Shown here: positions 1 to 47,891 of the stretch, one piece after another
How positions within the stretch are numbered: position 1 is the stretch's first letter
Layout of the letters: each line of letters opens with the position of its first letter
Assembly: GCA_025360005.1 (NCBI GenBank)
Contig: JANYDA010000007.1
Location: 1-64,000, forward strand
Reading direction: 5' to 3'
DNA: 64,000 nucleotides
Source: Fibrobacteria bacterium
Lineage (GTDB): Bacteria > Fibrobacterota > Fibrobacteria > UBA11236
The notes under the pieces: model-generated
The model's input: only the letters and a program-made list of their open reading frames with translations
Database searches by the model: none
What the model was told of the DNA's origin: nothing
Position numbers and translations under genes: made by a program

Positions 1-141
1 CTCTTATGGTTTTCATTGGCTCGCCTCGAGCTGCTGATTCACCAATGGACGAAGGCCATTCACATCAATTCCAAATCCTCATTCTTCAAGTGTGTTTGCT
101 TTCACTTCTTTAGAATGGATTACCTCAATGGTCCGTATAAC
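1..141 (-). repeat. Copy of the first-cassette leader (start of cassette 5)
   Basis: This stretch matches 3632-3774 at roughly nine bases in ten. On the minus strand both begin with the recombination core GTTATAC and run into a new cassette. Here it is the start of the fifth cassette, whose body lies left of the window. Both copies contain an open frame of 16 codons with a stop (13-63 here, GTG start; 3646-3696 in the other copy, ATG start), differing at a few codons and using different stop codons. Either the cassette was duplicated or a shared leader was captured twice; the rest of cassette 5 is not visible. Confidence 0.75.
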
Positions 142-298
142 GCCGGATTGAGCGGCAAGCACGGCCGGAGGGGTTGGCCCGGAGGGACAGCTCCGGAGGG
201 TACCGGCGCGACCCTTGCTTATGGACCACAACGAAGAGACAGACCAAGAGCAAGGGGCGTGACGGCCGCGCGCAGTCCGCTCGAATCCGTTGTTATGC
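135..298 (-). other. attC site of integron cassette 4
   Basis: Imperfect palindrome of 164 bp bounded by GTATAAC (135-141) and GTTATGC (292-298). The arms pair as CGGATT-GAGCGG against CGGATTCGAGCGG, the right arm having one extra base. In known attC sites the extra base lies in the L'' box beside R'', and it leaves an extrahelical G on the recombining bottom strand. That places R'' on the right and R' on the left, so the site reads on the minus strand and follows the gene at 389-775. Inner GGCCG-rich stems are also visible. Confidence 0.85.
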
Positions 299-388
299 GG
301 CTTTTCTTTCGTTCGATACACCTGGCCGGAGACCCATTTTGCTTTCCACTTATCGTACATCAAATACGAAAGCAAACTTCGAATTTCA

Positions 389-775
389 CTAAATATTTTC
401 CCAATTTATTCTTGGCTCATCTTTTTTGATTTGCTCCTCATCAATTTGCCATGATTCTGAGTTTTGGAACAATGGCCGTGTATTCTCCAAAATCTCAGCA
501 ATAAATTGGACACCTAGTACAACTTGTTCTTCTAAAGACTTCGCACCTAGCTGAAATAGGTGGGCGTGCCAAGTGGTTTTCTTGATTTTTTCGTCGGCTA
601 AACCAATTGAGATTTCATTACTTTGGGAATCTATCCACAAAATAACATTCTTGTTTGGACTTTCGAATTCTATTTGGATTGATTTTTCAACCCAGAATTC
701 AGTTTTAGGGAAAGCAGCGAGTACTTTCCCTACCTCGCTCTTTAATCGAGTCGAAAGTTCAAATTGTTTCATCAT
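389..775 (-). CDS. Cassette 4 hypothetical protein, 128 aa
   Basis: Not recognised. The product is a soluble, charged protein of 128 residues with no signal peptide or membrane segment. It has an N-terminal helix-like part, a central part rich in alternating hydrophobic residues that looks like beta strands (around residues 30-60), and an acidic and basic tail. The gene is clearly AT-richer than the chromosome right of the integron, as expected of a cassette gene. It starts with two consecutive Met codons and ends about 90 bp before its attC site. Small strand-plus-helix proteins of this kind in integrons can be immunity or antitoxin-like, but nothing here demonstrates that. Confidence 0.65.
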   Translation of the reverse strand: MMKQFELSTRLKSEVGKVLAAFPKTEFWVEKSIQIEFESPNKNVILWIDSQSNEISIGLADEKIKKTTWHAHLFQLGAKSLEEQVVLGVQFIAEILENTRPLFQNSESWQIDEEQIKKDEPRINWENI

Positions 776-803
776 GATAAACGCCCTACTTTTGAATCAG
801 CGC

Positions 804-838
804 CACCCTTCGGAAACCTCTGAGGTGGTGTTTTTTTT
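804..838 (+). terminator. Possible intrinsic terminator
   Basis: A six-base stem (GCCACC pairing with GGTGGT, one G-U pair) is followed by a run of eight T on the plus strand. It lies in the leader of cassette 4 and would stop transcription running against the cassette genes. The stem is short, so this is tentative. Confidence 0.25.
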
Positions 839-944
839 CCCCTTGATTCTTCAGCCGATCCGCCAATTCGAAGTCCTATCTGCTCCTCTCTTCATTTCTT
901 AAATCTCTTCGCATTACATCTCTTGGTTTTCATTTCTTCAGTCC

Positions 945-1081
945 GTATAACGCTCGATTCACCTGCAAACGAGGCTGAAGGGCTTGGCCGGGACGGACAA
1001 GCCCTGAAGGAACCGGCGCAGCGATTGCGCAAACAATCGATGTGACGGCCGAGGCTTGGCAGGTGGAATCGATTGTTATAC
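945..1081 (-). other. attC site of integron cassette 3
   Basis: Palindrome of 137 bp bounded by GTATAAC (945-951) and GTTATAC (1075-1081). The left arm CGATTCACCTGC pairs with CGATTCCACCTGC from the right arm, again with one extra base on the right. The stop codon of the gene at 1076-1618 lies inside the R'' box (GTA-TAA-C), a common arrangement in integron cassettes. The site reads on the minus strand. Confidence 0.87.
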
Positions 1082-1618
1082 GGCGGCGTGCCATTGAGAC
1101 CGCGCAGTTTTGACTAGGCCTGGATTGACCCAAAGAGACTCCGGACATTTTTTATTCCTATTAGATTTTATTTGACTCATCTTTATTAGGCTCACCAGAA
1201 AATCGAAAGAGAAAAGTTGTTTTAATTCGGTAATTGCCGAGTCAGATATTATTTGCCTAGTTTTGTATCCGCCCTCGATGTATCCATTTCCCCCTTCAAT
1301 TTTTCTTCCGTCTTCAAATTGAACTTGGATTTTGTAATCTGCTTCGCCTTCTAAATAGAACCGCACGATATTAGAATCTCCAGTTGGGATCGGATCAAAT
1401 TTCATTGTGCTTTTGAACCCACCGCTACTGTGTTGGAGAACTATTTCTTTTATTTTCAATTTGCTTTGATTTGTTATTTTCACAGTGGCCAATGGTACGC
1501 CGCACACGGATGGGTAAAACAATGAAAGGGGCCCGGCTGTAATAACACCTACAGCATAGGCAACGACTAAGCTTAAACTTAAAATGACAATTATTGCAAC
1601 TTTATTCGCGCGTCCCAT
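1076..1618 (-). CDS. Cassette 3 membrane-anchored protein, 180 aa
   Basis: Residues about 7-30 form one hydrophobic segment, so the protein is probably anchored in the inner membrane with a periplasmic domain. Residues about 45-135 form a beta-rich domain that aligns by eye with the product of 5959-6357: both have an I-x-N-x-S motif, a G-D-S near the middle, F-x-DGR, a GGY turn and a late SDS or NDS. The last 25 or so residues are less similar and end at the stop inside attC. Function unknown. The gene is AT-richer than its chromosomal paralogue. That a cassette gene and a gene just beyond intI share this fold is unusual. Confidence 0.75.
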   Translation of the reverse strand: MGRANKVAIIVILSLSLVVAYAVGVITAGPLSLFYPSVCGVPLATVKITNQSKLKIKEIVLQHSSGGFKSTMKFDPIPTGDSNIVRFYLEGEADYKIQVQFEDGRKIEGGNGYIEGGYKTRQIISDSAITELKQLFSFDFLVSLIKMSQIKSNRNKKCPESLWVNPGLVKTARSQWHAAV

Positions 1619-1653
1619 TTTCTAAGCCTTCGTCTTTTTAATTTTTCTTATTC

Positions 1654-2979
1654 TTATTTATGAATTTTCGTGGGCTTTTTCCGAGTTCCATTTTCCCGTC
1701 CGTATAACGTGCTGATGAGCGGTGAACGAGGCCGAAGGGCTTGGCCTGGAAAGGACAAGCCCGGAGGGTCACCGGCGCGGGCCTTGCCTTCGCAAGGGCC
1801 GTGACGGCCGAGGCTCATCCACTCGATCAGCTTGTTATGCGCCGGTTTTTTCATCTCTTTTTCGGATTCCGGATTTCTCGTCTTATGAATAGAGAATTTC
1901 CTCCCCCACTTCTCTCTCCGTTGGAACCAGGGCTGGAACTTCGCGACTACCACCAAAGGTACTTCACATTCTTTGCATTTGGTTTCCGATTCCTTCTCTT
2001 CCATCTCTTCGAGGGTCTCTTCTCCGTTTTCCATGCGGATTTTTTCAAGGGACGCCGACCAATAGGGATGGAGCAACCCATAGTACCGAAGCCGGACAAA
2101 CCCTTTGGGAAGAATGTGTTGTAGATATCGACGCAAGAACTCCTCTCCCGATATCGACATCTCCCGCATTTCACTTTGGTGCCGGTTCAGACGGTGCCGA
2201 ACCTTGAAAACCACGCCTCCCTTGTCCACTTTCACGATGCGCGAAGCGCCTATTCCTATCCGCTTGATATACCGGCCGAGATATTCGACTACGTTGTGAT
2301 GGCTGGCGAAGTTCTTCTTCGTATAAACCACCCAGGCCAATTTCCAAAACGAGGAGGGGATCTTTTCGCCCAATTCTTCACGCAGCGCATTCAGAAACCG
2401 GGTTTTGAACCACTTGGCCAGGCAGTTGTTGGGGAAAATCACCTTCCTTTGGACCCGCTCGAATTCGCCTTCCTGGTTCAGAAACCCACCGAGCATCATC
2501 ACATGGACGTGCGGAAAGAAGCCCAGCTTTGAATCCCAGGTATGCAGCACGGCCATAAAACCTATCTGGCCTTGAACCCAACGTGGACTGGCACCAAATG
2601 CACCTAGGGTTTCACCCACAGCCTTTAATAACTTGTCGTAAAACACGGATTGGTTTTTCCGCGCTATATAATGGAGTTCGGTCGGAACCGTGAACACCAG
2701 GTGGTAATAGTCCGTCTTCGGAAGACGGCGCTTCGCCGTGTCGATCCATTCTTGGGTGCGGCTGTTGTTGCATTTGACGCAAGCGCGATTCCGGCAGGCT
2801 CCGTTTTTCTCCTCGACCAAGCCACAATTGGTGCAGGCCAGAATAGTCTTTCCGTAGGTTTCCGTGCGGCATTCATTGAAGTTGAGCAGGGCTTTCTTGT
2901 GGCTCGAAGGCATATCCTCTCCGAATTGTCGCAGGTACTTTGGTCCAAACCGATCGAAAATCTCTATGAGCTTGTTCAC
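1654..2979 (-). CDS. IS91-family (HUH, Y2-type) transposase in cassette 2
   Basis: A single-strand DNA transposase of the IS91/IS801 type. Visible in order: an N-terminal zinc-binding region with paired Cys (CTNC near residue 49, then CRNRAC and CVKC), the HUH metal-binding motif in FFPHVHVM (near residue 157), and the catalytic tyrosine motif EYLGRY (Y-x3-Y, near residue 235). Length to the attC boundary is about 380 residues, close to the 400-430 usual for the family. The frame continues through attC (1840-1702) and stops at 1654, so the last 60 or so residues are translated recombination site rather than transposase. It sits alone in its cassette, 154 bp after the cassette start; I could not identify IS ends. 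Confidence 0.85.
   Translation of the reverse strand: MNKLIEIFDRFGPKYLRQFGEDMPSSHKKALLNFNECRTETYGKTILACTNCGLVEEKNGACRNRACVKCNNSRTQEWIDTAKRRLPKTDYYHLVFTVPTELHYIARKNQSVFYDKLLKAVGETLGAFGASPRWVQGQIGFMAVLHTWDSKLGFFPHVHVMMLGGFLNQEGEFERVQRKVIFPNNCLAKWFKTRFLNALREELGEKIPSSFWKLAWVVYTKKNFASHHNVVEYLGRYIKRIGIGASRIVKVDKGGVVFKVRHRLNRHQSEMREMSISGEEFLRRYLQHILPKGFVRLRYYGLLHPYWSASLEKIRMENGEETLEEMEEKESETKCKECEVPLVVVAKFQPWFQRREKWGRKFSIHKTRNPESEKEMKKPAHNKLIEWMSLGRHGPCEGKARAGDPPGLSFPGQALRPRSPLISTLYGRENGTRKKPTKIHK
1702..1840 (-). other. attC site of integron cassette 2
   Basis: Palindrome of 139 bp bounded by GTATAAC (1702-1708) and GTTATGC (1834-1840). The arms GCTGATGAGCGG and GCTGATCGAGTGG pair with one extra base on the right, matching the other three sites. 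Orientation is minus strand, directly behind the transposase domain, whose reading frame passes through the site. Confidence 0.85.
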
Positions 2980-3000
2980 GCATTAGAATTAAATCAGATG

Positions 3001-3017
3001 CATATCCTATGGATATG
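3001..3017. repeat. Perfect inverted repeat upstream of the transposase
   Basis: CATATCC, a three-base loop TAT, then GGATATG. It lies about 20 bp upstream of the transposase start codon at 2979. It could be a transposase-autoregulatory site or part of an IS terminus; the sequence alone does not decide. Confidence 0.4.
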
Positions 3018-3091
3018 ACCGCGCGCACAGACGATGGTTCCAGAGCGAATTATTTTGGTTGGAAGCAGCGAGAATCGTGGAATCAGAGTCT

Positions 3092-3388
3092 TCAGTTACG
3101 GAATTTCTTCTGCTTTTCATTCCGTGCGTATAACACGGGGATAACTTGTGAGCACGGCCGGAGCCCCGCCATTGCGGGGCAATGGGTACCGGCGCGCCCT
3201 TTGCCCTTAGACACCAGAGAATTGCCCGACCCAAAGCAAAGGGCGTGACGGCCGCGCGCAATCAAGTTGATCCCCTTGTTATGCGGAAGCTGTGAGATGC
3301 CGTGCGGTACGATTAAAGGTTCCATGGCGGCGGCCCCTCCAAAGCCCAAACATAAGATAAAGGCGATTAGGCGGACAGGGAGCGGACC
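3092..3388 (-). CDS. Doubtful cassette 1 ORF with a signal-peptide-like start
   Basis: The frame begins with a short hydrophobic stretch (about residues 7-22) ending in GGAAA, like a Sec signal peptide, followed by some 15 residues before the reading frame enters attC at 3284. If real, only a stump of a secreted protein remains and the rest is translated attC. An overlapping frame (3279-3563) stops inside R'' as cassette genes often do, but its sequence looks non-coding. No ribosome-binding site supports either. Cassette 1 may be non-coding or decayed. Confidence 0.22.
   Translation of the reverse strand, partial: GPLPVRLIAFILCLGFGGAAAMEPLIVPHGISQLPHNKGINLIARGRHALCFGSGNSLVSKGKGRAGTHCPAMAGLRPCSQVIPVLYARNEKQKKFRN
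3128..3284 (-). other. attC site of integron cassette 1
   Basis: Palindrome of 157 bp bounded by GTATAAC (3128-3134) and GTTATGC (3278-3284). The arms GGGGATAACTTG and GGGGATCAACTTG pair with one extra base on the right. Inner hairpins include GCCCCGCC-ATT-GCGGGGC and a GCAAAGGGC pair. This is the site closest to the integrase and defines the first cassette as 3134-3773. Confidence 0.87.
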
Positions 3389-3632
3389 CATAATCGCACT
3401 TACAAAGTGAGCGGCTAATGGTTCCGCGGACCGTGGCTCTGAAGCCAGGCCGAGCTCCAACCCGGACTGTTTGTCCCGCGTACGACAGATGACTCGCTTT
3501 GAGTATGAGCCGAACCAAATTACTCGTTGTACGCGGGATCTTAGCCACGGACCCAGTGGGCAAAGCGCCCAGATGCGACCAGTCGCGGAGAATAGACCTC
3601 CAGCGGACGATTAAGCACCGCCGTACCGCACG
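3301..3632. repeat. 330-bp segment bounded by 11-bp inverted repeats in cassette 1
   Basis: CGTGCGGTACG at 3301-3311 is repeated exactly in inverse orientation at 3622-3632. The enclosed DNA has no clear gene. The right repeat abuts the end of the region shared with window position 1. This could be a small non-autonomous element inserted in the cassette, or a regulatory or structured cassette. I see no flanking target duplication. Confidence 0.4.
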
Positions 3633-3774
3633 TCTCTTATGGTTTTTATTCGCTCGCCTCGAGCTGCCGATTCACCAATGGCCGAAGGCCATTCATTTCA
3701 ATTCCGATTCCTTATTCTTGAAGCGTGTTTGCTTTCACTTCTTCAGAATGGATTACCTCAATGGTCCGTATAAC
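3632..3774 (-). repeat. Leader of cassette 1, also found at 1-141
   Basis: This is the integrase-proximal start of the first cassette and matches the DNA at 1-141. On the minus strand it starts at the attI crossover. It includes a 16-codon open frame (3646-3696, ATG to TAA) that keeps its length and most residues in the other copy. It also contains a small palindrome, GGCCTTCGGCC. Whether the micro-frame is translated is unknown. Confidence 0.7.
3768..3774 (-). other. attI: attI crossover of the integron
   Basis: On the minus strand GTTATAC occurs here and is identical to the R' boxes of all four attC sites, but has no palindromic partner on its integrase side. It lies about 255 bp from the most likely intI start and marks where new cassettes enter. 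The adjacent DNA on the intI side is AT-rich, as is common for attI and the cassette promoter. Confidence 0.65.
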
Positions 3775-38468: not shown

Positions 38469-38897
38469 TTAGGCTTTTTCTTTTTCGAACTGGTTTTTAA
38501 GTTCCGCGGATTTGCCGTGGCCGGTGCCCATCTTGATCAATTCGCGGGAGAAGGCTTCGATGGCGGCCGCGTCCAGGTAATCGATGGGAAAGAAGGCTTC
38601 GGCGGTCTGGCCGGCCTCTTCCTGGAGGCCCTTGATGCGGACCCAGCATTCACAGAGGCCGGTGCCGGCCACGGTCTGGAAAGAAAACTCCGCGCGGCCC
38701 ATGCCGGTGCCGATGGAATAGTCCTCTTTCTCGCCCAAGGATCCGGAAAAGCCCTTGATGGCCTTGCCGAAATCCAGCAGCGCCTTGCTGAGGCAACTGA
38801 AACTGGTGGTTGCGGAATAGGAGGGGCTCCGGGCCAATGCCTGCAGGTAGCATTGATCCTTATCCTGGGATACGATGGTTAAGACGACTTTGCCCAT
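38469..38897 (-). CDS. Hypothetical cytoplasmic protein, 142 aa
   Basis: Not recognised. Soluble, no signal peptide. It starts with a beta-like KVVLTIVSQDKD, has a Ser/Thr-rich centre, then GRAEFSFQTVAGTG and a WVRIKGL strand, and a helical, Lys-rich end. ATG 38897 follows the RAYT-like gene stop by 11 bp, and its own stop is directly followed in frame by the DoxX-like gene, so these three genes probably form an operon. Confidence 0.6.
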   Translation of the reverse strand: MGKVVLTIVSQDKDQCYLQALARSPSYSATTSFSCLSKALLDFGKAIKGFSGSLGEKEDYSIGTGMGRAEFSFQTVAGTGLCECWVRIKGLQEEAGQTAEAFFPIDYLDAAAIEAFSRELIKMGTGHGKSAELKNQFEKEKA

Positions 38898-38907
38898 TCG
38901 CCGGTGA

Positions 38908-39456
38908 CTACCGCGCCTGCAGGCCCTTGAGGGCCTTACGCGCTTCCGCCAACTCCGCGGAACCGCCGATCGCCATCTCCGTAAACCCTTTTTTCCACAA
39001 TGCGGACGGGCTTTGCGCGCCGCGCGCCGGAGACGATCCGGCCTTGGTAACCGGCGTGTTACGGGCGGTCCCGGCGTTACTGGCTGCATTGGCGGCTTTA
39101 CCCAACTGGGCCAGCCTCAGGGACGAGAGGACCTTGAAAAGCTTGATGACTTCCTCCAGGGACACTTGATCTTTCTTCTTGGAGGAGAGCAAAAGGATGC
39201 CCTGGAGCCGCCGCGGTCCGATGACCATGGCATCCGGTTCCACGGCGGGACGGATGTCGGCCATCTCCCGCCACGTGGCCGCCAGCGCTTTGCCGCGCGC
39301 ATTGAGGATGGTTTCGCCGCCGCGTAAGGTTCCGAAAGGCTTGGCTTCGTCCTTGGCGGAAAGGGTGACCCAGTACACTTCGCGCCCCAGGGAATCGGCT
39401 TTATTCCTGAGCCCCGATCTCTTCCCCTTGGGTTGGGAAGGGTTGGACGTGTCCAT
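38908..39456 (-). CDS. RAYT-like protein lacking the catalytic residues
   Basis: 182 residues. The layout follows REP-associated tyrosine transposases: VYWVTLSAKD (usual YFVTICT), FGTLRGGETILNARG (usual FGxIxxGxMxLNxxG), W-x-EMADIRPAVEPD, then MVIGPRRLQGILLL where active enzymes have MPNHVHGI, then SLEEVIKLFK and LWKKGFTEMAI where they have W-x-RNYYEHII. Both histidines of the HUH motif and the tyrosine region are replaced. The frame is intact, has a good ribosome-binding site (GGAGGAG), and is in an operon, so it looks like a domesticated, catalytically dead descendant, not a decaying gene. A nucleic-acid-binding role is possible. Confidence 0.65.
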   Translation of the reverse strand: MDTSNPSQPKGKRSGLRNKADSLGREVYWVTLSAKDEAKPFGTLRGGETILNARGKALAATWREMADIRPAVEPDAMVIGPRRLQGILLLSSKKKDQVSLEEVIKLFKVLSSLRLAQLGKAANAASNAGTARNTPVTKAGSSPARGAQSPSALWKKGFTEMAIGGSAELAEARKALKGLQAR

Positions 39457-39589
39457 GGTACTCCTCCACGGGTCGGATTGCCCGGTCCCGTACGTCACCG
39501 ACGGCGCCAAGAGCGCCGTTTCCACAAAATAGCACAATGTGACGGGATTTCCCCGCCGAAAATGGGATGGGTGCTTGCCGCGCCCCCTT

Positions 39590-41182
39590 TCAGATCGCGT
39601 AAGCTTGTACCAGGAAGTTATGCAGCTCATCGGTCACCTCCCGGCGCAGCGCGGAACGTCCGCGGTACAAGGCCTTCATCTCCGTGAAAGAGACCAGGGA
39701 GGGATGGATAAGGGGCCGTATCAAGCCGGTGGCTATGGAAACCGGGCTGCGCAGCAGGGCCAAGGGTACGCGGCCGTTGACGGGACCGGAATGCAGTTCG
39801 CGGCGGGAGGCTATTTTGCTCTGGACCAAGGGCGAGCGGCTGCCTTCCACGATGGCCTCCACCACTCCCGAGGCCCCATAAACCCGGGGGTTGTCCAGCA
39901 TTTTCAGGATGATGGCGTCGCGATGGATGTTGGCCATCACCGTGGTGCGCAGATCGGGCGCGATGCGATCCGGATTGGAACTGCGGAAGGGCCGGGTGAG
40001 GTCGTCGCGGGCGATCCAGGGCGAGTACGGATTCTCACCGAAATTGCCGAGCACGGTGCTGCCGTCCCGTTCGACCTTGGCTTCCGAGAGCAGGACTTCC
40101 ACTGCCGGCCGGCCGGCCGCCACGTCCAGGCGGAAATGCCCGCGATCATAGGATTGCAGCGCCATGCGCGCCCATTCCAATGGGCCCGCCGGGGATCCGC
40201 GCCCTTCCATCAGCCACCGGCACAGGGACGACAAAGCGATGAGGTCGCGGGTGGGGATGCGTTTGGCTTGCTGCAATTCCAAGGTTTCCCTGAGGCCCGC
40301 CAGTGCAGGCGATTTGGCCAGGCATTCCTTGAGATGGGAAAAGAAGGACGGGCCCATGGCCTTTTCCAATCCCATGGGGGCTTCCTGGATGGGGCCGAAT
40401 CCGCCGATGCGTTGGGCCAGCTCCTGCGCCTTCTGCATGCGCTCTTCCAGGAGGTGGAGATGCGGGGACAAGCGCGCCACCGTGTCCGGATCGCCGGAGG
40501 CATGTTCGGTCTCAAGCCAATTCTTGCGTTCGCCCATGGCCATGCATTCGCAACGGATGAGGTAGATGAGCAGCCCCAGGTCTCCGGAAACGGGAATCAG
40601 CCCGACTTGCAGAGTTTTGAAGGCATCGGCGGCAAGGCGGCAGTAGGGATCGAAATCCAGGAACTGCGAAAGCGATAACGCGGCAATCAGTTCCCGGGCC
40701 AGGCCGGACTCCACCGTGTTCAAGGGCGTCCTGCGTTCTACCCGCAAGAGCAGGCGTTTCAGGTGCCGGAATTGCAGGGTATAGGCCGCGGTCTGCGAGT
40801 CGGAAGTTTGCACGTCCAACAGGAGGAAAATGAACCGCTCCATCCACACGCGCGGGAACCGCGCCTGCATCGCTTGGGACAGGACGTCTTCCAAGGGATA
40901 TTGGCCGCATTGCCGCTTAAGGAACTCGGCGAGCCGGATGCAACCGGTGGGATAGTCCCGATGGGAGTCGACTAAAGCGAAGAGGGCGCTGAGCGGATAG
41001 GGCAGGGTGCTTTTAAGAAAAACATCCGACTCCGAACCCGGAGTCCCGGCAGTCGCCCCGCCATTGGTCCAAGAGGCGGGCTCGCGGACCTCCTCGGCGC
41101 CGGTTGAACCGTTGTCTTTGTTACCGGATTCACAGGAGTTCCGGTTACGGGTTTGCAGGTAGTTTAAAAGGACTTCTTCCAT
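39590..41182 (-). CDS. Large hypothetical protein, 530 aa
   Basis: Not recognised. Soluble, no signal peptide. Residues 10-55 are a polar, low-complexity linker. Residues about 65-330 are helical with Leu-rich and acidic stretches. Residues about 400-520 contain repeated motifs of the type ILKMLDNPRVYG and LLRSPVSIATGLI, like HEAT-type helical repeats. ATG 41182 was preferred to the earlier ATG at 41209. It is transcribed from the region with the two DnaA boxes. The gene has 133 bp to the RAYT-like operon downstream. Confidence 0.6.
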   Translation of the reverse strand: MEEVLLNYLQTRNRNSCESGNKDNGSTGAEEVREPASWTNGGATAGTPGSESDVFLKSTLPYPLSALFALVDSHRDYPTGCIRLAEFLKRQCGQYPLEDVLSQAMQARFPRVWMERFIFLLLDVQTSDSQTAAYTLQFRHLKRLLLRVERRTPLNTVESGLARELIAALSLSQFLDFDPYCRLAADAFKTLQVGLIPVSGDLGLLIYLIRCECMAMGERKNWLETEHASGDPDTVARLSPHLHLLEERMQKAQELAQRIGGFGPIQEAPMGLEKAMGPSFFSHLKECLAKSPALAGLRETLELQQAKRIPTRDLIALSSLCRWLMEGRGSPAGPLEWARMALQSYDRGHFRLDVAAGRPAVEVLLSEAKVERDGSTVLGNFGENPYSPWIARDDLTRPFRSSNPDRIAPDLRTTVMANIHRDAIILKMLDNPRVYGASGVVEAIVEGSRSPLVQSKIASRRELHSGPVNGRVPLALLRSPVSIATGLIRPLIHPSLVSFTEMKALYRGRSALRREVTDELHNFLVQAYAI

Positions 41183-41302
41183 GGGGTTATCTATCGGCCA
41201 TCTTACCATTCCTTGCCGACGCGATCACCACAAGAAAATCATTTGCAGAGGCGAAAAATTGGGTCAAAACCTATCAACAGGCTGTTGAAAAGATGTATCA
41301 AC

Positions 41303-44638: not shown

Positions 44639-44747
44639 CGTCCCGGCGAAGGAGCCGATCCCGTAAATCCTCGCCATGGAATCGAACGGCCGAGTAATTT
44701 ATAATCGATGGCATCCGGGAGGATTGCCCGGAACATCGGAGTTACGC

Positions 44748-46145
44748 ATGCGATACTTCAGCAGACCCGGCGTCTTAGCGTCCGCCGCCTTCGCGGCCGG
44801 CATTTCCCTTTTGGGCTGTCCGGCATCGGGCGACATATCCTTCCAGGATGCCTTCCCGGGGACCCGCTTCGACAGGCCCGTCTACTTCGGCGCCTTTCCC
44901 CTCAAGGAAAAGACCTACGTGGTGCTGGAATCCCATCAGGGCCTGGCCTTGATAATCTCCCGGCAAGGGAATGCCTGGGTGAAGGACACCTTGGTCAAGA
45001 TAGACGTGCACCAGGCCAACGAGATGGGCCTGCTCGGCATCGCCTTCCATCCGGATTACAAGAACAACCATAAGTACTACGTGAGTTACGATCCGCCCGA
45101 TACCTTGTACAACATTGTCGAAGAACGTATCGCGGACGCCAGCGGGATGAAGGACTCCGGGACCAAGCCGCGCATCCTCATCAAGATCGCGGACAAGTAC
45201 GAGAACCATAACGGCGGCACCATCGCCTTCGGTCCCAAGGACGGGTTCCTTTACTACGGCACCGGCGACGGGGGCAGCGGCAACGATCCGGACGGCAACG
45301 GCCAGAACACCAACGCCTTGCTGGGAAAATTCCTGCGCATCGACGTGGACAGGAAGGATGCCGGGCTGGAATACGGCATCCCCGCCGACAATCCTTTCGC
45401 CAAGGGCGGCGGTCGCGGCGAGATCTTCGCGTACGGCGTCCGCAATCCCTGGAAGTGGAGCTTCGATCCCGTGAACGGGGATCTCTGGGCGGCGGATGTG
45501 GGCCAGGATCATGTCGAAGAGGTGGACCTCATCACCCTGGGCGGCAATTTCGGCTGGAGCGCCATGGAAGGCCCCGGCGGAGTCAACAACGGGAAAATGA
45601 CCCTGCCGGTTTTCTCTTACGATCATACCGTGGGCACCTGCATCATCGGGGGCGTGGTGTTCCGCGGCAATCCCGCGTCCAAGTATTATGGCACCTATTT
45701 CACCGCGGACATCAACACCAGGAAATTCTGGGCGCTCAAGAAGAACGGCGCCGGCCCGGCCACGGTGGAGGACTTGCCGCCCGCGCCGACCAACATCTCC
45801 TCCTTTGGGACGGACGCGGAAGGGCGCATATACATGGTGGGCATGGACAACGGCACCATCTACTCGGTGGATAGCCCCGATCTCAGTCCCGCGGCGGCCG
45901 TCCGCTCCGTAACGTTCCAGTTACCTAAGGGTTACGCCAGGAGTTTCACGGTCGCGCGGGGCGGCCGTCCGGACGCGGGAATGTTCCGCCTGGCCGCGCG
46001 CCTGGGAATCTTCGGGATGGAGGGGAACCGTCTCGGCGCCCTTGACCAGGGCGATGCCCGCCTGCCGGACGGCCTGGTGCCCGGCTTTTACTTGGCGCGT
46101 CCCTACGGGGGAACAAGCCTTCCGGATCTCCTCCTGGTCCGCTGA
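44748..46145 (+). CDS. PQQ-type sugar dehydrogenase-like lipoprotein (copy 1)
   Basis: 465 residues. A signal peptide ends in the lipobox SLLGC (Cys near 24). The propeller matches soluble glucose/sorbosone dehydrogenases and the Hhip type: EMGLLGIAFHPDY, NHNGGTIAFGPKDGFLYYGTGDGG (in pieces; catalytic-type His), and VRNPWKWSFDP (Arg that binds substrate or PQQ in active enzymes). The last 70 residues (LGIFGMEGNRLGAL, then PDGLVPGFYLAR) are the C-terminal module shared with other secreted proteins here. A paralogue follows 345 bp downstream. Confidence 0.83.
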   Translation: MRYFSRPGVLASAAFAAGISLLGCPASGDISFQDAFPGTRFDRPVYFGAFPLKEKTYVVLESHQGLALIISRQGNAWVKDTLVKIDVHQANEMGLLGIAFHPDYKNNHKYYVSYDPPDTLYNIVEERIADASGMKDSGTKPRILIKIADKYENHNGGTIAFGPKDGFLYYGTGDGGSGNDPDGNGQNTNALLGKFLRIDVDRKDAGLEYGIPADNPFAKGGGRGEIFAYGVRNPWKWSFDPVNGDLWAADVGQDHVEEVDLITLGGNFGWSAMEGPGGVNNGKMTLPVFSYDHTVGTCIIGGVVFRGNPASKYYGTYFTADINTRKFWALKKNGAGPATVEDLPPAPTNISSFGTDAEGRIYMVGMDNGTIYSVDSPDLSPAAAVRSVTFQLPKGYARSFTVARGGRPDAGMFRLAARLGIFGMEGNRLGALDQGDARLPDGLVPGFYLARPYGGTSLPDLLLVR

Positions 46146-46490
46146 AGGTGCGTCGGCTCCGCCAGATCCGCCGGCAACTCGCCCGCATGGAGCCTTTCCC
46201 GGGCCAGTAGCCCGCAAGTTACTATGGATCAGCGTTGCCCGGCAGGCGACACGTCCCGCTCCATATTGCCCAGGCCGTCGCGGAATCCATAGCCTTCACC
46301 AGGGTATAGGCGCGTTATCCGCTGTTTCGGGCGGGGTTACGCATTTTCCCCAATTAAGCGTTAGTAATCCGCGCGCGCCGATGCTATTTTGATTCCGGGG
46401 TAGCCGCCGGAGTCCAGCTCCGTAGGTTCATGTGGGATTCATATCAGTAGTCGTGCGTGGTGGAAGAGGTGTTTTTTTCCTTGGGGGGTT
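46146..46490. other. Intergenic region between the two dehydrogenase-like genes
   Basis: 345 bp with no credible gene. TGCTATTTT near 46380 could be an extended -10 element, with a stem GGAGTCCAGCTCC shortly after it in what would be the leader. The downstream gene thus probably has its own promoter and is not only read from the first copy. No T-run terminator is visible. Confidence 0.4.
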
Positions 46491-47891
46491 ATGTCCATGT
46501 TTATCCGATCCGGGTTGCGAATGCTTTTTTCCGCCGGTCTCCTTTGCGCCCATGCGGCGAAGGCGCAGATAGGCTTCAAAGACGCCTTTCCGGGCGTGAC
46601 CTTTAACCGTCCCGTTTGCATCGTACAGATGCCCGACGCTCCCGTCAAAACCATGGTGGTGGTGGAACAGCATTTGGGCCAGGTGTCCCTGGTGCGGAAA
46701 ATGAACAACGTCTGGACCAAGCAGACCTTGTTCCAGATGAACGTGAGCCAACAGGCCGAGATGGGCTTGCTCGGCATCGCCTTCCATCCGGATTTCAAGA
46801 ATAACCACAAGTATTACATCACTTACGATCCCCCGGCATCGGATTTCAACGTCGTGGAAGAGCGCCAGACGGACGCTACCCTGATGAAGGACGCCGGCCT
46901 GGCGCGCGCCCTTATCCGCCAGCCGGACAAGTACGCCAACCATAACGGCGGCACGCTGGCGTTCGGTCCCAAGGACGGATTGCTGTACGTGGGCATGGGC
47001 GACGGCGGCAGCGCCAATGATCCGGACGGCAACGGCCAGAACAAGAACGTACTGCTGGGCAAGATGCTGCGCATCGATGTGGACAGGAAGGACGCGGGGC
47101 TGGAATACGGCATCCCCGCCGACAATCCTTTCGCCAAGGGCGGGGGACGCGGGGAGATCTTCGCGTACGGTTTGCGCAACCCGTGGAAATGGGCCTTCGA
47201 TCCGCTGAACGGGGATTTATGGGTGGGGGACGTGGGACAGAACGCCACCGAGGAGGTGGACATCCTCAAGCCGGGCGGCAATTACGGTTGGGGCAGCATG
47301 GAAGGGCCCAACGGCAAGAACGACGGCAGCATGATCCTGCCCGTCTATTCGTACGGCCACGGCGTGGGCCTATGCGTCATCGGCGGTATGATCTACCGGG
47401 CCAGCAGCGCCTCCAAATACTACGGAACGTATTTCATCGCCGACTATTCCAAGCACCAGCTGTGGAACCTCAAGAAGAACGCTACCGATCCGGCCACGGC
47501 CACGGCCACGGCCACGGAAGTGGGCAAGGTGCCCTACGGCCCCACCACTTTCGGTACGGACGCAGAAGGCTTGATCTACGTGGGCACTGATCAGGCCGCG
47601 GGCCCGGTCTACTATCTGGACAGTCCGGATTTGGCCGCCGCTTCCGCAGGCATCCGGCGCGGGGGGTTGGGCGAATGGTCGGACGCGTCTTACGCCGCCC
47701 GGCCCGGAAGCGCGCTCCCTCCGGCAGCCTTCGGCGATGCCGCAAGGGCGGGGATTTTTTCTTTGGCGGGAGAATCGGTGACGGAGGTTTCCCGCCAGGC
47801 ACCTTCCCTGCCCGCTTCGCTCAAGCAAGGATTGTATGCTTTGAAGCCGCGCAGCGCGGGTTCCAAAGCAACGCTCATCCTAGTGAGGTGA
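46491..47891 (+). CDS. PQQ-type sugar dehydrogenase-like secreted protein (copy 2)
   Basis: 466 residues, closely similar to the preceding gene through the whole propeller: EMGLLGIAFHPDF, KYANHNGG, GMGDGGSANDPDGNGQ and LRNPWKWAFDP. It differs at the N terminus: an ordinary signal peptide cleaved near AKAQ with no lipobox Cys, so this copy is soluble or sorted differently. It carries the same C-terminal module (ARAGIFSLAGES, then LKQGLYALK). An Ala-Thr repeat near residue 335 comes from four copies of GGCCAC (47492-47515). ATG 46491 follows GGGGGG; ATG 46497 is also possible. Confidence 0.83.
   Translation: MSMFIRSGLRMLFSAGLLCAHAAKAQIGFKDAFPGVTFNRPVCIVQMPDAPVKTMVVVEQHLGQVSLVRKMNNVWTKQTLFQMNVSQQAEMGLLGIAFHPDFKNNHKYYITYDPPASDFNVVEERQTDATLMKDAGLARALIRQPDKYANHNGGTLAFGPKDGLLYVGMGDGGSANDPDGNGQNKNVLLGKMLRIDVDRKDAGLEYGIPADNPFAKGGGRGEIFAYGLRNPWKWAFDPLNGDLWVGDVGQNATEEVDILKPGGNYGWGSMEGPNGKNDGSMILPVYSYGHGVGLCVIGGMIYRASSASKYYGTYFIADYSKHQLWNLKKNATDPATATATATEVGKVPYGPTTFGTDAEGLIYVGTDQAAGPVYYLDSPDLAAASAGIRRGGLGEWSDASYAARPGSALPPAAFGDAARAGIFSLAGESVTEVSRQAPSLPASLKQGLYALKPRSAGSKATLILVR
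47492..47517. repeat. GGCCAC simple repeat, four copies
   Basis: Four tandem six-base units inside the second dehydrogenase-like gene, encoding an Ala-Thr run. Unit gain or loss would keep the reading frame. The first copy of the gene lacks it. Confidence 0.8.

Follow-up and report, generated by a model that had tools for sequence, protein, structure and literature searches.

A conserved RAYT homolog with a degenerate catalytic site at a fixed locus in a genus of Fibrobacterota

REP-associated tyrosine transposases (RAYTs) are described as domesticated proteins of unknown benefit to their hosts, thought to act on REPs via an intact catalytic centre (PMC8049555, PMC8266576). A gene in the window (the whole 64-kb stretch of Fibrobacterota DNA that was analyzed) raises the question of what such a protein is, and what it may still do, when the family layout is recognizable and the catalytic residues are replaced. 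We addressed this question using the six sequenced genomes of the genus, several of them metagenome-assembled, and a set of 168 genomes of the phylum.

Ancestry, predicted fold and the former active site

The gene occupies positions 38908–39456 of the minus strand, stop codon included, and encodes a 182-aa protein with the N-terminus MDTSNPSQPKGKR; the ATG is at 39456 and the TAG at 38908–38910. The reading frame is also open farther upstream, and the start at 39456 is common to all six orthologs. A sequence-only reading of the window had given the same coordinates without a strand, and had described an intact frame, a strong ribosome-binding site and another gene 10 bp beyond. Each of these points was borne out: the uninterrupted frame runs from ATG to TAG, the GGAGGAG site (39461–39467, minus strand) lies 4 nt 5' of the ATG, and after a gap of 10 bp another minus-strand gene begins at 38897.

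Comparison by hhalign of a profile of the six orthologs with a profile of 13 active relatives from the phylum, all 13 matching both NCBIfam REP_Tyr_transpos and Pfam Y1_Tnp, yielded a probability of 98.6, E=1.1e-15 and a score of 99.7 over 126 columns, which end at the helix of the catalytic tyrosine. Among the controls, 100 column-shuffled versions of the ortholog profile scored 12.0 ± 2.4 (maximum 21.2), and the reversed profile scored 12.1. An active-RAYT profile built without any of the six orthologs had its sole match in the window's genome at this locus (E=2.8e-10) and, in the five other genus members, exactly one match per genome, namely the ortholog. Weaker matches (E from 1e-7 to 1e-3) in other genera and families are the ordinary RAYTs of the phylum, which carry the MPNHVHG, WQRNYYEHIIR and YIxxNP motifs. 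The curated NCBIfam model REP_Tyr_transpos (NF047646) reaches two of the six orthologs (best E=0.0033), and the protein scores under the curated cut-offs of both NF047646 and Pfam PF01797. The window protein alone had no useful match in Pfam or PHROGs, searches of the PDB (phmmer with the protein, hmmsearch with the ortholog profile) returned chance matches only, and PADLOC gave no result for it. We regard descent of the protein from a RAYT as almost certain.

The fold was modeled by AlphaFold2 from the aligned sequences of the window protein, three orthologs and three RAYTs from viral contigs; since the latter are active RAYTs, the prediction is not fully independent of the homology. The model has an overall pLDDT of 75.6, with values mostly of 80–93 for the core up to residue 120, about 86 for residues 151–180, and low values in the N-terminal tail and the 121–150 linker. 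The order of elements is a strand (25–34), two strands (42–45 and 48–51) and a helix (53–68), followed by two strands (72–79 and 83–91), a long helix (100–128), a strand (159–163) and a final helix (166–181). All 30 PDB matches found by Foldseek with E<0.001 are Y1 transposases, including those of ISDra2, IS608 and Sulfolobus and TnpA-REP (4er8), and the top matches are IS200/IS605 TnpA proteins, the matched entries including 2xm3, 2f4f and 4er8. A fold unrelated to TnpA-REP had been named as the outcome that would speak against the relationship; the predicted fold instead agrees with the IS200/IS605 and REP transposases, and the model supports retention of the HUH (Y1) transposase fold.

The whole RAYT/TnpA-REP layout (HUH Y1 class 2; NF047646; 4er8) can be aligned from the first β-strand to the tyrosine helix, including the W-(Q/K) ahead of the last strand; the difference is that the protein lacks the HUH motif, the tyrosine, the asparagine ligand and the NP. 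The degenerate HUH site, IGPRRLQG (residues 79–86; 39199–39222, minus strand), aligns with VMPNHVHG of the active relatives, as the sequence-only reading had proposed. The first histidine column contains R, G, R, R, G and E in the six orthologs, and the second contains Q, Q, H, Q, E and R; the ortholog that retains the second histidine (IGPRRLHG in G004) has neither the first histidine nor the tyrosine. The same reading had placed the tyrosine motif at GFTEMAI. That segment does align with NYYEHII, but YYEH is not the tyrosine motif: the nucleophile of the family sits in the Y---NP motif, whose asparagine is the third metal ligand (PMC6006769), and is thus the tyrosine of YIxxNP. In E. coli TnpA-REP the two residues are Y115 and N119, respectively (PMC8266576). 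The corresponding segment here, ARKALKGLQAR (residues 172–182 at the end of the last helix; 38911–38943, minus strand; motif as defined in PMC6006769), has alanine at the tyrosine position (A175, 38932–38934), as do all six orthologs, and leucine at the asparagine position (L179), which is Leu, Lys or missing among the orthologs. With the motif so corrected, the claim that all catalytic residues are replaced stands, through A175 and the lost asparagine ligand.

The equivalents of H83, H85, Y175 and N179 are invariant in all 13 active relatives, as is the proline of Asn-Pro, and are replaced in all six orthologs with the exception of the one residual histidine. Judged from these residues, the protein very probably cannot carry out the HUH reaction. 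The residues kept (F41, G55, W62, D75, P81, G86, K108 and W154) are mostly structural and include one lysine, Lys108 (39133–39135, minus strand), which is located in the long helix 100–128 and is invariant among the orthologs and their active homologs. By ancestry the protein belongs to the RAYT superfamily, but the motifs examined forbid classing it among the RAYT enzymes.

Neighboring genes and a promoter-like element

The order of genes at the locus is the same in all six genomes: a nitroreductase gene, a gene for a 539-aa protein and the RAYT homolog, which converges on the last genes of the nuo operon from the opposite strand. Farther upstream are a MarR-type gene and, in five genomes, a pirin gene. 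The 539-aa gene (39590–41209, minus strand) has no family match and is adjacent to the RAYT homolog at all six loci; a second copy, 32–34% identical, is found elsewhere in each genome of the genus, and relatives of its product occur in two genomes of another family.

The intergenic region that separates the 539-aa gene from the start codon contains the promoter-like element TTGTGCTATTTTGTG, of the extended −10 type (39523–39537, minus strand). Its core TATTTTGT is identical at all six loci, and most of the surrounding intergenic DNA has diverged. The 15-mer is probably the gene's own promoter. We also considered that it might be a regulon operator and rejected this, as the genome contains a single copy, also when one mismatch is allowed.

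The downstream gene (38469–38897, minus strand) encodes a highly conserved, genus-specific protein of 142 aa. It is located directly downstream in five of the six genomes, with gaps of 5–11 bp, and among the 168 genomes it is present in exactly the six that possess the ortholog. In the remaining genome (G001) it is found elsewhere, between frames that resemble, by eye, those for siroheme synthase and methionyl-tRNA synthetase; given this separation, the two genes need not be adjacent. The best of the AlphaFold2 models of the 142-aa protein (pLDDT 64.9; the other four below 43) is built of two repeats, each a sheet plus a helix, and Whirly and PURA dominate among its best Foldseek matches, with probabilities mostly 0.8–0.99 but E-values of 0.015–0.1. 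Whirly and PURA are single-strand nucleic-acid-binding folds. The 142-aa protein matched nothing in the PDB by sequence or among family models, and an identity as DUF3276 (bacterial PUR-alpha, PF11680) was discarded for want of a sequence match. As a low-confidence lead from the model, the protein may resemble the Whirly/PUR single-strand-binding fold.

Possible roles of the protein

A protein with the HUH (Y1) fold and such replacements would be unable to cleave or rejoin DNA and could instead bind single-stranded or hairpin nucleic acid without cleaving it, perhaps acting together with the 142-aa protein encoded just downstream. The pI is 10.1–10.6 in the six orthologs versus 6.2–9.5 in active relatives, the basic charge being partly within the disordered N-terminal tail and linker. 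Because of this strongly basic pI and the retained lysine, nucleic-acid binding is the most likely residual activity, and we consider it a good deal more likely than its absence. Binding to DNA or RNA, which the sequence-only reading had suggested, is plausible in view of the pI, the preserved fold and Lys108 helix, the retention of Trp154, and the possible ssDNA-binding neighbor. Overall, the protein is probably an exapted, catalytically dead RAYT that most likely serves as a non-cleaving nucleic-acid binder. A more specific version, in which the RAYT homolog and a Whirly/PUR-like partner form a two-protein single-strand-binding module encoded in one operon, is at present rather improbable. 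If it were true, the transposase-derived component would sense, chaperone or regulate single-stranded or hairpin nucleic acid without cleaving it, and the module would have arisen in a lineage without any active RAYT left.

The strongest alternative is that the exapted protein has lost nucleic-acid binding and has a protein-protein or structural role, for instance as a dimerization scaffold. The columns of the catalytic pocket vary freely, a hydrophobic helix (LFKVxxxLRLxxL) among the best-conserved stretches is a possible interface, and the gene lies within a redox-type cluster (MarR, pirin, nitroreductase), away from replication genes. However, the strongly basic pI of all six orthologs, above that of active RAYTs, the retention of Lys108 and the neighbor with a possible ssDNA-binding fold all point the other way, and we regard this role as unlikely. 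Far less likely still is that the protein continues to act on single-stranded DNA via other residues or another metal site. Some polar positions are still conserved (D75, E160 and R173), but the histidine columns freely accept R, G, E, Q and H, the tyrosine is fixed as alanine and one species lacks the tail, which together indicate that there is no catalytic constraint at the old site.

Selection, descent and distribution

Orthologs with 43–78% identity were found in the five other genomes of the genus, one per genome, so that all six possess one; their frames are open and their catalytic losses match. The dN/dS ratio (NG86) is 0.21–0.40 in all 15 ortholog pairs, with bootstrap 95% ranges within 0.13–0.55 for six pairs. 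The dS values are 0.65–1.96, near saturation for the distant pairs, and the selection argument is therefore carried by the closer ones. The linker is looser (dN/dS 0.40–1.60) and the C-terminal helix, devoid of its tyrosine, is tight (0.08–0.22). In a neutral simulation with 0.33–0.7 changes per site, 1–5% of copies remained stop-free, as compared with six open frames out of six observed. The search for orthologs had been suggested in the sequence-only reading as a check, and its outcome agrees with the new role proposed there: selection persists without the active site, which argues for such a role. That the protein has a selected function is very likely.

The loss of the catalytic residues and the early end of one ortholog (G001; 43% identity, a 21-aa insert, five residues shorter at the end) could be taken as marks of a decaying RAYT pseudogene. 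This is contradicted by the dN/dS values at these dS levels, by indels in multiples of three with no frameshift, by a start, promoter-like element and position conserved at six of six loci, and by the placement of the tyrosine-less C-terminal helix among the most constrained parts, leaving decay highly improbable. Chance resemblance of an unrelated protein to RAYTs, which the lack of a Pfam match for the window protein alone and the empty single-sequence PDB search might suggest, is practically negligible, given a profile comparison far above shuffled controls and the agreement of the genome profile search, the curated NCBIfam match and the fold match.

The identity to the window declines in roughly the same order for the RAYT homolog and the neighboring genes, as vertical descent predicts. 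In the phylogenetic tree the six orthologs form one clade (100/100) whose stem measures 3.3 changes per site, with end branches of 0.09–0.78 inside the clade; the nearest active sequence, from the sister genus, is placed with weak support. Rapid change along the stem and constraint thereafter are the pattern expected from a shift in function. Most probably, a RAYT was captured once by the common ancestor of the genus and, after losing the metal site and the nucleophile, became fixed as a single-copy host gene.

The RAYT model matches (E<1e-4) in 85 of the 168 phylum genomes and in none of the six genomes of the genus. No active RAYT was found by the RAYT model and profile searches in the window's genome or in the other genomes of the genus, and a role as regulator of an active RAYT in its own genome was rejected on this ground. 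With one copy per genome at a constant position, the gene does not behave as a mobile element of the IS200/IS605 type. No relatives of the degenerate form were found in the plasmids and viral contigs searched; hence there is no sign of mobility. No REP-like palindromes were detected within the surrounding 4 kb. Single copy, fixed locus, vertical descent and purifying selection together characterize it as a domesticated gene.

We also looked for independent degenerate copies elsewhere in the phylum. The candidates, weak matches of about 160 aa in four genomes, are IS200-type TnpA proteins with HUH and tyrosine. Most of 30 other family loci show HUH and/or tyrosine motifs by a simple motif search, which is no exhaustive census. 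In another genome of the same class, a RAYT domain with HUH and tyrosine (G024:C60:47991-48272) is located inside a 1254-aa frame, a possible fusion.

Like classical domesticated RAYTs (PMC8049555) and those of other bacteria (PMC8049555, PMC8266576), the gene is a single-copy, vertically inherited host gene. Those RAYTs have retained their catalytic centre and act on REPs by processing or replicating them, whereas the protein described here, judging by its residues, cannot (PMC8049555, PMC8266576). It shares its predicted fold with IS200/IS605 TnpA (PF01797; 2xm3, 2f4f, 2vih), and differs in being non-mobile, single-copy and confined to a fixed locus, with no catalytic residues. Family members without the core motifs were also present in the TnpA-Y1 set of Quentin et al. 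2018, where motif absence was taken as a sign of a non-functional protein and such sequences were set aside (PMC6006769); here, in contrast, six motif-less orthologs are under purifying selection. We found no description of a conserved, catalytically dead RAYT in the open-access literature searched, and within that literature the clade is provisionally new. A clade under selection without catalytic residues suggests that the fold alone can serve the host, and it offers a clean system for studying non-catalytic RAYT function without interference from cleavage. Nuclease-dead TnpB proteins that turned into transcription regulators are comparable in kind.

The 64-kb window contains no high-copy short repeat. 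Two diverged copies of a stretch, 73–85% identical and 1.73 kb apart, were observed at 44970–47223, where they overlap long plus-strand ORFs (44676–46145 and 46491–47891). In addition, repeated stretches of 141 nt (91% identity) and 103 nt (76%) are found about 3–3.6 kb apart within positions 1–3774.
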